DNA of 28,616 nucleotides from a virus. The stretch spans positions 1 through 28,616 of the IMG/VR virus record IMGVR_UViG_3300030106_006359; one strand, given 5' to 3'. The notes beneath the pieces were generated by a model. The model saw only the letters and a list, made by a program, of their open reading frames with translations. It was not told the origin of the DNA and did not search any database. The position numbers and the translations under genes were made by a program. Below are positions 2,639 through 21,577 of the stretch, piece by piece; position 1 is the stretch's first letter, and the number at the start of each line of letters is the position of its first letter.

Positions 2639-3008
2639 AATAACGATAGCAGAGAGAACAACAAAAACGCGTGATGATTTGCTTGATCGAGCGAAAGACT
2701 TGGTCAACGGGCCCCGTAATAAAATTTACGGCGACCCGACCACGAATCACGAACGCATTGCAGACCTATGGACAGTGATTCTCAAACGACGAGTCACGAC
2801 CCACGAGGTCTATCTAATGATGGTGGCGCTGAAATTGAGCCGGTTGATTGAAACCCCAGGACATGAGGACAGTTGGGTGGACATGATTGGGTACGCGGCA
2901 CTGGGAGGAGAAAATGAGTCTACAAATGGCGATGTTTGCCCCGAAAACCGAGTGGATCCCGCCTATCGAACTGCCCGACTTGACGACGGCAAAACAGATA
3001 GCGATTGA
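2631..3008 (+). CDS. DUF6378-like phage protein
   Basis: A 125-residue protein. Residues 15-95 fit the DUF6378 pattern I remember: LLDRAKDLVNG, then YGDPTTNHERIADLW, LMMVALKLSRL and HEDSWVDMIGYAAL. The biochemical role is unknown; it is common next to phage replication genes. The conserved part ends near residue 93. The last 31 residues read through the start of the polymerase gene in another frame (95-base overlap), are low in recognisable pattern, and probably represent a displaced stop codon, not a domain. The gene starts eight bases before the end of the endolysin gene. Confidence 0.75.
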   Translation: MSEITIAERTTKTRDDLLDRAKDLVNGPRNKIYGDPTTNHERIADLWTVILKRRVTTHEVYLMMVALKLSRLIETPGHEDSWVDMIGYAALGGENESTNGDVCPENRVDPAYRTARLDDGKTDSD

Positions 3009-4806
3009 CGTTGAAACCAAAGACCCTAATCTAAAAACCAAGGGGCCAGGATGGCCGACCGGCGATGGACACGTCGTCGGGTATGCTATCGCGGCGGAGG
3101 GTTGGTCCGGGTATATACCGATTCGACATCTAGGTGGCGGTAACCTAGACGAAAAAATTGTTAACCGATGGCTGAAAAAAGTCTTCGAATGTCCGGCAGA
3201 TAAGATTATGCACAACGCGTCTTATGATGCGGGCTGGATCAAGCGCATGGGCTTCACGTTGAACGGGCGGCTCATCGACACGATGTTGATCGCGTCGTTG
3301 TTAGACGAAAATCGGTTTAGTTACAGTTTGAACGCACTGGCCTATGATCTTTTAAATAAGACCAAAAGCGAAAAACAATTAGTGGAGGCGGCGAGGGAAT
3401 TCGGAGTCGATCCGAAAGCAGAAATGTGGAAACTCCCCGCAGGTTTCGTTGGTCCCTACGCTGAGGCTGACGCTGAACTCGCCCTCGAACTCTGGCAATT
3501 TTTCTCGGGACAACTTAGCCAGGAAGAGCTCTGGCCTATCGCCAACCTCGAGCTTGAACTGCTCCCATGTCTCATTGACATGACGTGGCGGGGCGTCAGG
3601 ATCGACCAGGAACGGGTCGAGCGAACGCGGGATGCTCTCCTCAAGCGGGAGGTCGAAATTCGCAAGCAAATCAAGCACATCGCGGGCTGTGATGTTGAAA
3701 TCTGGGCTGCTCAAAGCCTCGCCAAAGCGTTCGACAAGTGTAATATCGCATACCCACGCACAGAGAAGGGCCATCCGAGTTTCACAAAACTCTTCTTGCA
3801 GGAGTCGGAAGAACTCCTTCCGAAACTCATCGTCCAAGCGCGGAACCTCAATAAGGGCTCCGGGACATTCATCAATACCATCATGAAACACTGTGACAAG
3901 GACGGCAGAATTCATTCTCATATCAACCAAATTCGTAGTGATGATGGTGGCACGGTTAGTGGTCGGATCAGCATGAACAATCCCAATTTGCAACAAATCC
4001 CGGCCCGTGACCCAGAATTAGGTCCGATGATTCGCTCTTTATTCTTACCAGAAGAAAACGAACAATGGGCGGCCATCGATTTTTCGCAGCAGGAACCACG
4101 GATCCTGGTGCATTATGCCTCTGTTTATGGCAAAACTCGAGGAATTGAATTGGAAAAAGCCGCTGATTTTGTCGAGGCTTACCAGAACGATCCCGACATG
4201 GATTTCCATACGATGGTCGCGGAAATGGCTAACGTGCCACGGAAACAAGCCAAAACCATCAACCTGGCGATGATGTATGGCATGGGCGTGAACAAATTGT
4301 CCGAGCAGCTTGATATCCCGGTTGATGAGGCGAAAACGTTGGTGCAGCAATATCATGACCGCGTGCCCTTCGTCAAAGGGCTTATGCAGGGCGTCACGAA
4401 TCGCTTGAATGACAAAACCTCGGGCGGCTCGGTACGCTCAATTTTGGGCCGAAAATGCCGATTTGATTTATGGGAGCCCGATACTTTTGCCATGAACAAG
4501 GCGCTGCCTTATCGCGAAGCGGTCCAGGAATATGGGCCCACGACTAAGTTAAAAAGGGCGTATACCTACAAAGCTTTGAATCGATTGATCCAGGCAAGCG
4601 CAGCGGACATGACCAAAAAGGCGATGACGGATATTTACAAAACCGGTAAAATACCGTTGATACAAATCCACGACGAAGTCGCCATGTCGGTCGCTAGTCG
4701 TGAAGAAGCGGAGAACATTGCAAAACTTATGACCGACGCTGTCCCGCTGGAAGTGCCGAACAAATGTGACATCGAAATCGGCCCTAGTTGGGGCGAGGCA
4801 GAATGA
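2914..4806 (+). CDS. DNA polymerase family A with 3'-5' exonuclease
   Basis: A 630-residue replicative polymerase. The proofreading domain has all three Exo motifs: Asp32/Glu34 (IAIDVET), Asn101 to Asp105 (NASYD) and Tyr182 to Asp186 (YAEAD). The polymerase domain has motif A Asp389 (DFSQQEPR), motif B with Arg443, Lys447 and Tyr455 (RKQAKTINLAMMYG), and motif C His586-Asp587-Glu588. The residue equivalent to E. coli Pol I Phe762 is Leu451. The 5' nuclease domain of bacterial Pol I is absent, as usual in phages. The ATG at 2914 follows a strong GGGAGGAG; a TTG at 2887 is in frame but less likely. No helicase or primase is seen in the window. Confidence 0.95.
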   Translation: MSLQMAMFAPKTEWIPPIELPDLTTAKQIAIDVETKDPNLKTKGPGWPTGDGHVVGYAIAAEGWSGYIPIRHLGGGNLDEKIVNRWLKKVFECPADKIMHNASYDAGWIKRMGFTLNGRLIDTMLIASLLDENRFSYSLNALAYDLLNKTKSEKQLVEAAREFGVDPKAEMWKLPAGFVGPYAEADAELALELWQFFSGQLSQEELWPIANLELELLPCLIDMTWRGVRIDQERVERTRDALLKREVEIRKQIKHIAGCDVEIWAAQSLAKAFDKCNIAYPRTEKGHPSFTKLFLQESEELLPKLIVQARNLNKGSGTFINTIMKHCDKDGRIHSHINQIRSDDGGTVSGRISMNNPNLQQIPARDPELGPMIRSLFLPEENEQWAAIDFSQQEPRILVHYASVYGKTRGIELEKAADFVEAYQNDPDMDFHTMVAEMANVPRKQAKTINLAMMYGMGVNKLSEQLDIPVDEAKTLVQQYHDRVPFVKGLMQGVTNRLNDKTSGGSVRSILGRKCRFDLWEPDTFAMNKALPYREAVQEYGPTTKLKRAYTYKALNRLIQASAADMTKKAMTDIYKTGKIPLIQIHDEVAMSVASREEAENIAKLMTDAVPLEVPNKCDIEIGPSWGEAE

Positions 4807-4807
4807 A

Positions 4808-5005
4808 ATGGATATTACATCGATACCGCCCACTGAAATTGCTTGGAAAACGGTCGCCGTCCAAAAAGCCGCGCGCCTACAGGAAGGGGGAGCGGGAAAA
4901 ACACTCAAACAAATGGTTAGTACAATCCCGCCTGTCTTATATACAGAAGGCGGAAAGATCGAACAAAAAAATCTACCAAGTTCTCGATTGAACGTGCAAG
5001 CCTAA
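4808..5005 (+). CDS. Small hypothetical protein after the polymerase
   Basis: A 65-residue protein beginning MDITSIPPTEIAWKTV; not recognised. GAGG at 4795-4798 lies nine bases ahead of the ATG. A second ORF in another frame, 4803-4991 (62 residues, beginning MKWILHRYRPLKLL, very basic), starts with an ATGA overlap to the polymerase stop but stands only four bases from the same GAGG. I prefer the 4808 frame because its composition is more protein-like and its start spacing better. Only one is likely to be translated. A promoter for the candidate small RNA downstream overlaps the 3' end. Confidence 0.45.
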   Translation: MDITSIPPTEIAWKTVAVQKAARLQEGGAGKTLKQMVSTIPPVLYTEGGKIEQKNLPSSRLNVQA

Positions 5006-5017
5006 ACAGGTTATACT
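4988..5017 (+). promoter_or_regulatory. Sigma70-like promoter for candidate small RNA 1
   Basis: TTGAAC at 4988-4993 and TATACT at 5012-5017 are separated by 18 bases. This resembles the TTGACA / TATAAT consensus (4 of 6 and 5 of 6). The expected start site, about 5024, coincides with the first base of a 7-bp stem (5024-5030 with 5073-5079). Confidence 0.5.
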
Positions 5018-5023
5018 CCGTCC

Positions 5024-5112
5024 GTCGGGTATCCTTCCTCAGTAGTTATCCTGCAAGATAACCAATCCCCACACCCGACATTATTGTTACCCCCGCTACG
5101 GCGGGGGTTTTT
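5024..5112 (+). ncRNA. Candidate small RNA 1 (about 89 nt)
   Basis: This is a promoter-to-terminator unit with no convincing ORF. The predicted transcript begins with GTCGGGT (5024-5030), which pairs with ACCCGAC (5073-5079). Inside it GTTATC (5045-5050) pairs with GATAAC (5057-5062). A rho-independent terminator (5089-5112) closes the unit. Outer stem, inner hairpin and terminator form a compact three-element fold. I do not recognise the RNA class. It could instead be only the 3' end of the polymerase operon transcript. Fold and boundaries are read by eye and not computed. Confidence 0.45.
5089..5112 (+). terminator. Rho-independent terminator with UNCG-type loop
   Basis: CCCCCGC (5090-5096) pairs with GCGGGGG (5101-5107), with A5089 and T5108 extending the stem. 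The loop is TACG closed by a C-G pair, a member of the very stable UNCG tetraloop class. A T-rich tract (5108-5112, continuing TTTC/TTTT) follows. It ends the polymerase operon and candidate small RNA 1. Confidence 0.88.
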
Positions 5113-5131
5113 CTTTCTTTTTCCCATAACA

Positions 5132-5143
5132 TCGCATATAATC
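5132..5143 (+). promoter_or_regulatory. Recurring TCGCATATAATC element before the RHH gene
   Basis: TCGCATATAATC contains a perfect -10 box (TATAAT at 5137-5142). No good -35 box is visible 17 bases upstream, which is the T-rich tail of the terminator. The same TCGCATAT core occurs ahead of 8055, 8964 and 10965, and inverted ahead of 17989. It probably drives the ribbon-helix-helix gene at 5164; AGGAG at 5152-5156 is that gene's ribosome binding site. Confidence 0.5.
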
Positions 5144-5163
5144 GTGTACATAGGAGAAATTTT

Positions 5164-5331
5164 ATGGACACTTCCAAGTGGAAATCGGTGCTCGTGCCCA
5201 GGGACGAGTACGAAGAACTCAAATTATTGAGTAAATCTGAAGGGCGTACCATGAGCGGGCAATTGCGCCTTATGTTTAAAGAATGGAAAGCCATGCGCCG
5301 CGAGAATTTAAAAAACGAGGCGACCGCTTGA
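5164..5331 (+). CDS. Ribbon-helix-helix (Arc/CopG-like) regulator
   Basis: A 55-residue protein. Residues 6-11 (WKSVLV) fit the RHH DNA-contacting beta strand, residues 13-27 (RDEYEELKLLSKSEG) helix A and residues 30-45 (MSGQLRLMFKEWKAMR) helix B. AGGAG lies eight bases before the ATG. RHH dimers bind inverted or tandem operator half-sites and usually repress. The gene stands alone between two candidate small RNA units, and its stop codon overlaps the -35 box of the promoter at 5328, so autoregulation or control of that promoter is plausible. Length and pattern fit the family well; the operator is not known. Confidence 0.7.
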   Translation: MDTSKWKSVLVPRDEYEELKLLSKSEGRTMSGQLRLMFKEWKAMRRENLKNEATA

Positions 5332-5356
5332 CAATGCCGCATACGCTTGCTAATGT
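5328..5356 (+). promoter_or_regulatory. Strong sigma70-like promoter
   Basis: A perfect TTGACA (5328-5333), a 17-base spacer and TAATGT (5351-5356; 4 of 6 to TATAAT). The expected start is about 5363. The -35 box overlaps the TGA stop of the RHH gene. TTGCTAA (5347-5353), which occurs in the recurring motif at 8013 and 8908, spans the spacer and -10 box. Confidence 0.65.
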
Positions 5357-5362
5357 TTGCGT

Positions 5363-5468
5363 ACTTCGTGGACTGACCCCACAGGATCAACAGGCGACGG
5401 CTTGTTGGCAAGTCGGTCTCTAGTGTGTGTGAAACCCTAAGCGGACGACCTTCGCTTGGGGTTTTTTT
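5363..5468 (+). ncRNA. Candidate small RNA 2 or attenuator leader (about 105 nt)
   Basis: The stretch from the promoter at 5328 to the terminator at 5432-5468 holds no convincing ORF but has clear fold potential. GTGG/CCAC pair near the 5' end. CGGCTTG pairs with CAAGTCG around a TTGG loop (5397-5414 region, one G-U pair). The terminator has a 12-bp stem. Because the T-run ends only about 14 bases before the start of the gene at 5483, the element may be either an independent small RNA or a leader whose terminator limits expression of the nuclease operon. No known class is recognised. Confidence 0.45.
5432..5468 (+). terminator. Strong rho-independent terminator
   Basis: AAACCCTAAGCG (5432-5443) pairs with CGCTTGGGGTTT (5453-5464) in 12 bp with one T-G pair, around a 9-base loop. 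A run of seven T residues (5462-5468) ends it. It sits between the promoter at 5328 and the gene at 5483, so it either ends a small RNA or acts as an attenuator. Confidence 0.9.
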
Positions 5469-5482
5469 ATGGAGGAAATAAA

Positions 5483-5614
5483 ATGTTAAGAATAAAACCA
5501 CCTTTTGTTTGCACTTTGAATCTCGACAACGCTCAACGTGAAGCATTGTGGCGGCAGCGCTTGCGCAGTTACCGTCGAAACTTTCGTTTACACCTAGTGA
5601 GGGGAGAGGCATGA
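5483..5614 (+). CDS. Small hypothetical protein before the nuclease gene
   Basis: A 43-residue protein beginning MLRIKPPFVCTLNLDNAQ; not recognised. The support is contextual: GGAGGA at 5471-5476 is a strong ribosome binding site seven bases before the ATG, and its TGA overlaps the ATG of the nuclease gene (ATGA at 5611-5614), implying translational coupling. The C-terminal half is Arg-rich (QRLRSYRRNFRLH), suggesting a nucleic-acid-binding or purely coupling role. It lies 14 bases after a strong terminator. Confidence 0.55.
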   Translation: MLRIKPPFVCTLNLDNAQREALWRQRLRSYRRNFRLHLVRGEA

Positions 5615-6021
5615 AAAAATTTTTATTGTTGGGTTTACTATTGCCTGTTCTCACGCAGGCGGAATGCTTCCCCGTTACCGACGTGGTGAAGGTCGTAGAC
5701 GGCGATACGATTGATGTGCGCATCAAAGTGCTGCCCACGGATCTGGACCTCCTGGCCGAAATTAGGGTACGTATGGAAGGCATCAATGCCTGGGAGTCGC
5801 GCACCAGGGATCAGGCCGAAAAAACAAAGGGCTTGGCGGCAAAAGCACGGCTCACGGAACTGGCCCAGGGACAAATTACCGTTTGTCTGAACGGCAAGGG
5901 CAAATTCGGGCGGTGGTTGGGCACGTTGTTTGATGGAGATGTCAATATCAACGAACAATTAGTCCAGGAAGGTCACGCGCACTACTATGACGGCGGAGCC
6001 CGCCAAAGTTTCAGCGAATGA
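5611..6021 (+). CDS. Exported staphylococcal-nuclease-like (SNase/TNase) enzyme
   Basis: A 136-residue protein with a signal peptide (residues 1-17, ending LTQA). The SNase fold residues are present: Asp30/Asp32 in VVDGDTI, Arg54 and Glu62 in RMEGINAWE (equivalent to Arg35 and Glu43 of the S. aureus enzyme) and Arg101 in KFGRWLG (Arg87). The Asp40 equivalent is Asn59, a change I recall from other family members. These enzymes cut DNA or RNA with calcium. Export suggests action in the periplasm or after lysis, such as degrading host DNA, excluding competing phages or clearing viscous DNA. GGGGAGAGG precedes the ATG, which overlaps the upstream stop. Confidence 0.88.
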   Translation: MKKFLLLGLLLPVLTQAECFPVTDVVKVVDGDTIDVRIKVLPTDLDLLAEIRVRMEGINAWESRTRDQAEKTKGLAAKARLTELAQGQITVCLNGKGKFGRWLGTLFDGDVNINEQLVQEGHAHYYDGGARQSFSE

Positions 6022-6197: not shown

Positions 6198-6331
6198 ACG
6201 GCTCGAGCAGTAGGCGAGTGGCAACGTCTCAAAAACACATGCTGGCAGAGCCGTCCCCGTTAAGTAGGCCGGGCACATCAATGCTTAATGTGTTTAATTG
6301 CCACACAACAATAATGAAGGAGGAAGGATAA

Positions 6332-6520
6332 ATGGTTACACGACCAGAGTTTTGGGAATGGATGAAAACGTGCCCGACCGAGTGGCAGCAGGAGCAGACT
6401 AACGATCCTTTTGGAAAAATATGGATTAGTTTTGCTATCGAATTTCACAAGGTGTTGCCCGAATCTACGACAGCCAAACATCTGCGGTGGGAAATGGAAA
6501 AAAATGACACGGACGCCTGA
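6332..6520 (+). CDS. Small hypothetical protein
   Basis: A 62-residue protein rich in Trp (five) and acidic residues, beginning MVTRPEFWEWMKTCPTEW; not recognised. A near-ideal AAGGAGGAAGG (6317-6327) lies just ahead of the ATG. It overlaps the next ORF by 17 bases. The 134-base gap before it has no clear promoter; it holds an 8-bp inverted repeat (6197-6204 with 6248-6255) of uncertain meaning. Confidence 0.6.
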   Translation: MVTRPEFWEWMKTCPTEWQQEQTNDPFGKIWISFAIEFHKVLPESTTAKHLRWEMEKNDTDA

Positions 6521-8897: not shown

Positions 8898-8936
8898 GCT
8901 TGCATATCTTGCTAAAGTCGCATATTATCCTATATA
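8898..8936 (+). promoter_or_regulatory. Recurring element and probable promoter for the gp88-like gene
   Basis: GCTTGCATATC (8898-8908) is followed by CTTGCTAAAGTCGCATATTATCC (8908-8930; shown here as the best copy of the recurring motif). TTGCTA (8909-8914), a 16-base spacer and TATATA (8931-8936) form a plausible sigma70 promoter. The next gene starts at 8964. Confidence 0.5.
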
Positions 8937-20671: not shown

Positions 20672-21577
20672 ATGGCTATTTCTCGCGCACAATTAGCGAA
20701 AGAGCTAGAACCAGGCCTTAATGCCTTGTTCGGGCTTGAATATGATCGTTACGAAAACGAACACGCGGAAATTTACGAAGAGGAATCTTCCGACCGCGCT
20801 TTCGAAGAGGAAGTAATGTTGGGTGGTTTCTCCACCGCGCCTGTGAAAGGTGAAGGCACTGCTATCTCGTTTGATGACGCTCAAGAAACATATACGGCTC
20901 GTTACACGCACGATACTATTGCGTTAGCGTTCTCAATAACGGAAGAAGCTATCGAAGATAATCTCTACGATAGACTTGCCTCTCGTTACACCAAGGCTTT
21001 AGCTAGATCAATGGCTCAAACCAAGCAGATTAAAGCTGCCGCTGTTTTGAACAATGCTTTTAGCACAGGAAGTCCTATTGGTGACGGTGCCGCGTTATGT
21101 TCTTCTGCACACCCCTCTTTGTCTGGTAACCAGAGAAATCTTTTAACTACACCTGCTGATTTGAATGAAACTTCACTTGAGCAAATGTTAATCGATATTG
21201 CTGGCCTCACAGACGAGCGTGGTTTGAAGATTGCCGTTCGTGGCACAAAATTAATTATTCCGAAAGAACTGCAATTCATTGCAGAACGAGTGATTAATTC
21301 TAACCTGCGATCTGGTACTGCGGATAACGACATTAATGCCGTGAAAGCAATGGGCATGTTGCCTGAAGGAGCGGTTGTTAACCACTTCTTGACAGACACA
21401 GATGCCTTTTTCATAAAAACTGATGCGCCTAACGGTTTTAAATACTTCAACCGTTCGCCCATCAAAACGCAAATGGAAGGTGATTTTGACACCGGAAATA
21501 TGCGGTTTAAGGCACGGGAACGTTATTCGTTCGGTGTGTCAGACTGGCGTTGTGTCTTCGGGACTCCTGGAGCCTAA
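20672..21577 (+). CDS. Major capsid protein
   Basis: A 301-residue protein fitting the Mu gpT-like branch of the HK97 fold. The start (MAISRAQLAKELEPGLNALF, GLEYDRYENEHAEI) is typical of this group. Further signatures are YTHDTIALAFSITEEAIED (the E-loop/spine region), ALCSSAHPSLSGN, LIIPKELQFIAERV and a C-terminal FGVSDWRCVFGTPG. AAGGAGG ahead of the ATG is the best ribosome binding site in the region, consistent with high expression. A terminator follows directly, so the gene ends a transcription unit. No N-terminal protease domain or long cleaved delta region is evident. Confidence 0.92.
   Translation: MAISRAQLAKELEPGLNALFGLEYDRYENEHAEIYEEESSDRAFEEEVMLGGFSTAPVKGEGTAISFDDAQETYTARYTHDTIALAFSITEEAIEDNLYDRLASRYTKALARSMAQTKQIKAAAVLNNAFSTGSPIGDGAALCSSAHPSLSGNQRNLLTTPADLNETSLEQMLIDIAGLTDERGLKIAVRGTKLIIPKELQFIAERVINSNLRSGTADNDINAVKAMGMLPEGAVVNHFLTDTDAFFIKTDAPNGFKYFNRSPIKTQMEGDFDTGNMRFKARERYSFGVSDWRCVFGTPGA

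Follow-up and report, generated by a model that had tools for sequence, protein, structure and literature searches.

The alphaproteobacterial alphaR8 RNAs are defined by an unpaired core, UUUCCUCCCU, located downstream of a weak hairpin, together with a Rho-independent terminator (PMC12559287). They are bound by Hfq, one of them, SisA, for which E. coli with Caulobacter Hfq has served as the test strain, represses mRNAs via the core, and in Caulobacter there is a host sponge that acts against them (PMC12559287). The family includes MmgR of Sinorhizobium meliloti and SisA to SisD of Caulobacter and corresponds to the Rfam family suhB (RF00519, gathering score 41). In the alphar14 or cuckoo RNAs (e.g. 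NfeR1), an anti-Shine-Dalgarno motif is displayed in loops whose closing stems are hypervariable in sequence (PMC10746234), as is also the case at the locus described here. Among phages, PreS of lambda and VpdS of VP882 are small Hfq RNAs acting by base pairing (reviewed in PMC12197685). Both were established by experiment, whereas the phage RNA that we describe is predicted from sequence. In a literature search, which was incomplete, we met no description of an alphaR8-like RNA from a phage.

The stretch of DNA analysed (henceforth the window) is the 28.6-kb virus record of a marine-type phage. In it, a family A DNA polymerase gene (2887–4806; Pfam PF00476, E 4.5e-60), the upstream gene of the operon and one that is also present in the relatives, is followed by a small gene, ORF62 (4803–4991), by the candidate RNA element (5024–5112) and by the gene of a small, 55-residue RHH-like protein (5164–5331; Pfam RHH_5 at 23.8 bits, just under the cut-off of 26) that is conserved in the relatives. 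These features of the window, and those given below, are on the plus strand unless stated otherwise. ORF62, which overlaps the polymerase stop, did not present any Pfam or PHROG match and does not behave as a conserved partner of the element, its only homologue being found in L084, the closest relative.

The body of the element (5024–5079) is closed by a 7-bp stem, GUCGGGU (5024–5030) pairing with ACCCGAC (5073–5079), around a C/U-rich segment and a 6-bp inner hairpin (5045–5062) in which GUUAUC (5045–5050) pairs with GAUAAC (5057–5062). The candidate seed UAUCCUUCCUC (5030–5040) is mostly unpaired in this fold and is complementary to Shine-Dalgarno sequences. The body is followed by an intrinsic terminator (5089–5112), nearly certain as such, with the stem ACCCCCGC/GCGGGGGU (5089–5108), a UACG tetraloop and a T run that provides the U tail; it heads the list of terminators in the 11 kb scanned and marks both the end of the RNA and a barrier before the RHH gene. 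A sequence-only reading of this DNA had already described the two nested stems, the strong UNCG-capped terminator and the promoter-like site discussed below, all of which are present as described, and had suggested a comparison with shuffled sequences, which bears it out. The complete element folds at -32.8 kcal/mol versus -19.1 +/- 2.9 for shuffles (z -4.74; 0 of 200 as good), and the body alone at -12.7 kcal/mol versus -6.2 +/- 2.0 (z -3.24; 2 of 200 as good). That no gene covers the element was likewise confirmed: a minus-strand ORF (5046–5804) was rejected as a protein gene because single-base deletions break its frame in L084, which is 95% identical to the window over the shared stretch.

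Whether the RNA has a promoter of its own is less clear. TTGAAC (4988–4993) and TATACT (5012–5017), with an 18-nt spacer, form a possible sigma-70 promoter (4988–5017, 9 of 12 matches) that is kept in L084; the end of ORF62 (4991) falls within the -35 box. Sites matching at 9 of 12 bases are found at chance level in the 11-kb region (12 versus 13.2 expected), and the hexamers of the window carry no weight as promoter evidence by themselves. More suggestive is their placement relative to the start of the stem, since such a promoter appeared in the 90 nt upstream of the stem in 1.8% of shuffles, and with a start no more than 2 nt away from 5024 in 0.2%, both figures having been computed post hoc. 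The pair of TATACT and a -35 box is not consistently conserved within the window's own clade, and the TATACT of the L073 group was set aside as a promoter, as it overlaps an arm of another hairpin. In many relatives the element begins only a few bases from the polymerase stop codon, so that processing from the 3' end of the operon fits equally well, and a small RNA transcribed from an independent promoter is for this reason possible but unproven. The earlier proposal of a gene-free small RNA with its own promoter thus holds for the structured RNA and its terminator, and the locus has gained comparative support (see below), but the promoter is at chance level and inconsistent in the clade. The phage DSL-LC04 (L082) has, near its primase, the gene of a small protein (2276–2533) whose annotation is RNA polymerase sigma factor, possibly relevant to phage promoter use.

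The surroundings of the element contain several other sites of potential regulatory interest. Column frequencies over 65 relatives delimit a promoter/operator of the RHH gene (5116–5163), with a TTGCAT-like -35 followed by repeats of about 10 bp (CATAnnnTCn TATAnnnTCn TAnA) over the -10, an arrangement conserved in nearly all relatives and suggesting that the RHH protein may regulate its own gene; a similar site is found at 8919–8936. Downstream of the RHH gene, a second strongly folded stretch without a gene (5332–5467; -55.7 kcal/mol, z -4.6) ends in a terminator immediately ahead of a 43-codon ORF (5483) and shows few differences in L084; it may represent a leader/attenuator or a further small RNA. 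By eye, a short promoter-hairpin-terminator unit was noted in two other relatives (L013, 5318–5408; L006, 5150–5250), again after the RHH gene; its loop, GCUCCGUA, is complementary to ACGGAG, the ribosome-binding site of the gene that follows. Much further along the window, a Mu-gpT-DE RNA (RF03012; 21656–21708, 69.5 bits, above threshold) adjoins a gpT-like capsid gene (20672–21577).

To place the element in a wider context, we compared the locus among related phages. With the polymerase as query, 80 related viral contigs were recovered, most of which keep the RHH gene downstream of the polymerase; further ones came from using the RHH protein as query, and the comparison was made on about 75 non-redundant relatives in which the two genes have this order. 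In the relatives that were examined, the two genes are separated by about 16 to over 900 nt, and this gap in most cases holds a terminator. No gap terminator was found in 19 of the 75, indicating that the element is dispensable. The sequence preceding the gap terminators varies greatly, and within it two short motifs stand out. CCTCCC, the complement of a Shine-Dalgarno sequence, is found within about 45 nt before 22 of 69 gap terminators but before just 2 of the 314 terminators located elsewhere in this DNA (Fisher p 4e-16), and CTGCTC before 15 and 2 of them, respectively (p 2e-10), p-values that are descriptive only given that both motifs were first seen in this same sequence set. The longer TCCTCCC is present in 13 of 53 upstream stretches, with 0.27 expected from shuffles. 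When the motifs were mapped as four states on the polymerase tree, 23 changes were required versus 41 in shuffles: their distribution tracks the phylogeny of the polymerase, although they changed repeatedly along it. We consider it likely that a conserved regulatory RNA locus lies between the polymerase operon and the RHH gene. Record titles place the phage relatives in MAGs of mixed phyla, probably binning noise, with several Alphaproteobacteria among the titles, single-cell genomes included; an alphaproteobacterial host fits these titles without being proved by them.

It is among the relatives with the anti-Shine-Dalgarno motif that the likeness to alphaR8 appears. Matches to suhB lie exactly at the gap in L121 (39.3 bits, E 1.3e-4), L035 (37.0), L024 (33.4), L029 (33.1), L069 (31.3), L150 (29.5), L076 (29.4) and L147 (28.8 bits), and none of the phage copies reaches the gathering score. 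About half of 30 whole records have such a gap match, including the complete phage DSL-LC04 (23.9 bits), and in most matching contigs the gap is the best site of the entire record. Six relatives (L035, L069, L076, L121, L147 and L150) carry the exact alphaR8 10-mer. Like the alphaR8 RNAs, these gap RNAs are 60–90 nt in size and have an unpaired core of this type followed by an intrinsic terminator and U tail; unlike them, they are found at the phage polymerase operon and not at the host FGase gene. A 54-kb phage contig, L061, has two more weak matches of suhB type, both on the minus strand and outside the polymerase gap (37307–37386, 25.3 bits; 37868–37935, 20.8 bits).

The window itself is a more divergent case. 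It shares with alphaR8 the Rho-independent terminator directly downstream (5089–5112), but it has no suhB/alphaR8 match, lacks the 10-mer and the weak hairpin 5' of it, and carries its own seed inside the strong 7-bp closing stem. Its best Rfam match is anti-hemB of Burkholderia (RF02837). This match covers the whole model at 21.6 bits (E 0.0024), far under the gathering score of 49.5, and is due largely to the terminator, which also accounts for most of the 15–18 bits scored by unrelated small RNA families. The window shares with anti-hemB the order of stem-closed C/U-rich loop (UUCUCCUCCCU), linker and terminator; no anti-hemB match was found in L002 or L010. SorX (RF02784) gave weak matches at the locus in L071, L028 and L143 (22–28 bits; threshold 46.6) and none in the window. 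In comparison with the cuckoo RNAs, which present CCUCCUCCC in three hairpins, the window has a single closing stem and CCUUCCUC, and CCUCCUCCC in several hairpin loops is absent from 5024–5112. At the Rfam thresholds, the window element was rejected as a member of suhB, of anti-hemB and of all other families. The original statement that the class of the RNA is not recognised remains valid for the window at gathering thresholds, whereas its relatives point to the alphaR8/MmgR type.

At closer range, the only difference in length between the elements of the window and L084 is a 3-nt insertion in the loop. Both stems are unchanged in L084, which leaves the window's own stems without informative variation. 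In the polymerase tree the window groups with L002 and then with L010 and L016 (support 95 and 94), and these three phages of the sister clade also have a C/U-rich hairpin loop before the terminator, with closing stems of unrelated sequence; by eye, the loop of L002, GGUUUCCCCUAGAUU, looks similar to the alphaR8 core and its flanks. Megablast of the element against phage records gave no match, and the blastn matches obtained there were discarded as short, terminator-type hits, mostly to mycobacteriophages. The window body had no blastn match in the relatives, and when viral contigs were scanned for the 17-mer GTCGGGTATCCTTCCTC, the hits were limited to the relative already known and a single unrelated contig. 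We read the window clade and the other relatives as sharing one locus with exchangeable seeds on the basis of position, layout and composition and not of alignable homology. Compensatory changes could be followed in two other, small groups at the locus. In L060, L115 and L124, a hairpin shows double changes in 3 of its 8 pairs with 100% pairing (22 of 500 shuffles reach this value), and in L073, L085 and L087 another one has a compensatory change in 1 of 15 pairs (186 of 500 shuffles). Such changes speak for hairpins at the locus in these other lineages.

The main rival to a functional RNA is that the element is simply the terminator of the polymerase operon, preceded by a 3' untranslated region that is structured by accident, an explanation that we find doubtful while taking it seriously. 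In its favour, terminators recur at the site while the sequence before them changes so much, the promoter does not rise above chance and a covariance model of seven phage anti-Shine-Dalgarno RNAs (R1) aligns only the terminator of the window (24.7 bits). A plain terminator does not account well for two motifs that are specifically enriched upstream of it and that other terminators of the same phages are without, for suhB matches located at the gap, for the covarying hairpin of L060, L115 and L124, or for a window body that by itself outfolds 198 of 200 shuffles.

Two other explanations grant the element a function of a different kind. The C/U-rich 3' segment might act in cis, by pairing with the conserved UUGGGG codons close to the polymerase stop, or else with the ribosome-binding site of the RHH gene, and so control the stability or translation of the operon. 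In several relatives RNAfold does pair CCUCCC, located ahead of the terminator, with the UGGGG at the end of the polymerase gene, and GGAG precedes the RHH gene start. The UUGGGG is fixed by protein coding, however, so that pairing with any CCCC or CCUCC is to be expected, and in the window ORF62 puts about 180 nt between the polymerase end and the element; we hold this role to be improbable. Similarly, we give little credence to a sponge or decoy, i.e. a phage RNA that would mimic the host alphaR8 seed and compete either for Hfq or for the sponge RNA of the host, thereby freeing host mRNAs. The presence of the alphaR8 core in relatives and the sponge known from Caulobacter (PMC12559287) are in line with it, but the core is absent from the window.

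The explanation that we prefer, with a probability of roughly 50%, is that the window encodes a phage base-pairing small RNA at a conserved polymerase-RHH site, whose terminator insulates the RHH gene. The predicted RNA of about 89 nt (5024–5112) would comprise a loop that is closed by a stem and exposes an unpaired C/U-rich seed, followed by the intrinsic terminator and its U tail, and would be either made from its own promoter or cleaved off the 3' end of the polymerase message. Its U tail would bind Hfq, and the seed would pair with chosen mRNAs of the host or the phage at their Shine-Dalgarno regions, blocking their translation, while the terminator would also insulate the RHH gene, which has its own putative promoter and operator. 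Within the phage, the best complement of the seed is GAGGAAGGATA (6320–6330), the ribosome-binding site of an ORF at 6332–6520, with an exact 11-nt match and a duplex of -18.9 kcal/mol. The start region of this ORF is a lead, not evidence, as a target of the predicted seed, because 17 of 1000 shuffled loops reach an equally good complement and the duplex weakens to -13.2 kcal/mol in L084.

Taking the relatives together, we tentatively propose, as a possibility that we rate well short of probable, that these widespread phages of marine type have an anti-Shine-Dalgarno small RNA of their own, similar to alphaR8/MmgR and always placed behind the polymerase gene, and that lineages such as that of the window swapped the seed (for CCUUCCUC or CUGCUC) and kept the site and layout, with the Hfq network of the host being hijacked or rewired. 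An alphaproteobacterial-type seed is present in many members of this phage group. The weak match in a named phage, DSL-LC04, makes the idea testable, and the variation in seeds provides a natural series for target mapping. Phage small RNAs are so far known from few, mostly enteric systems; if the proposal is true, uncultured and mostly aquatic phages would imitate, or compete with, the central Hfq small RNAs of their hosts.
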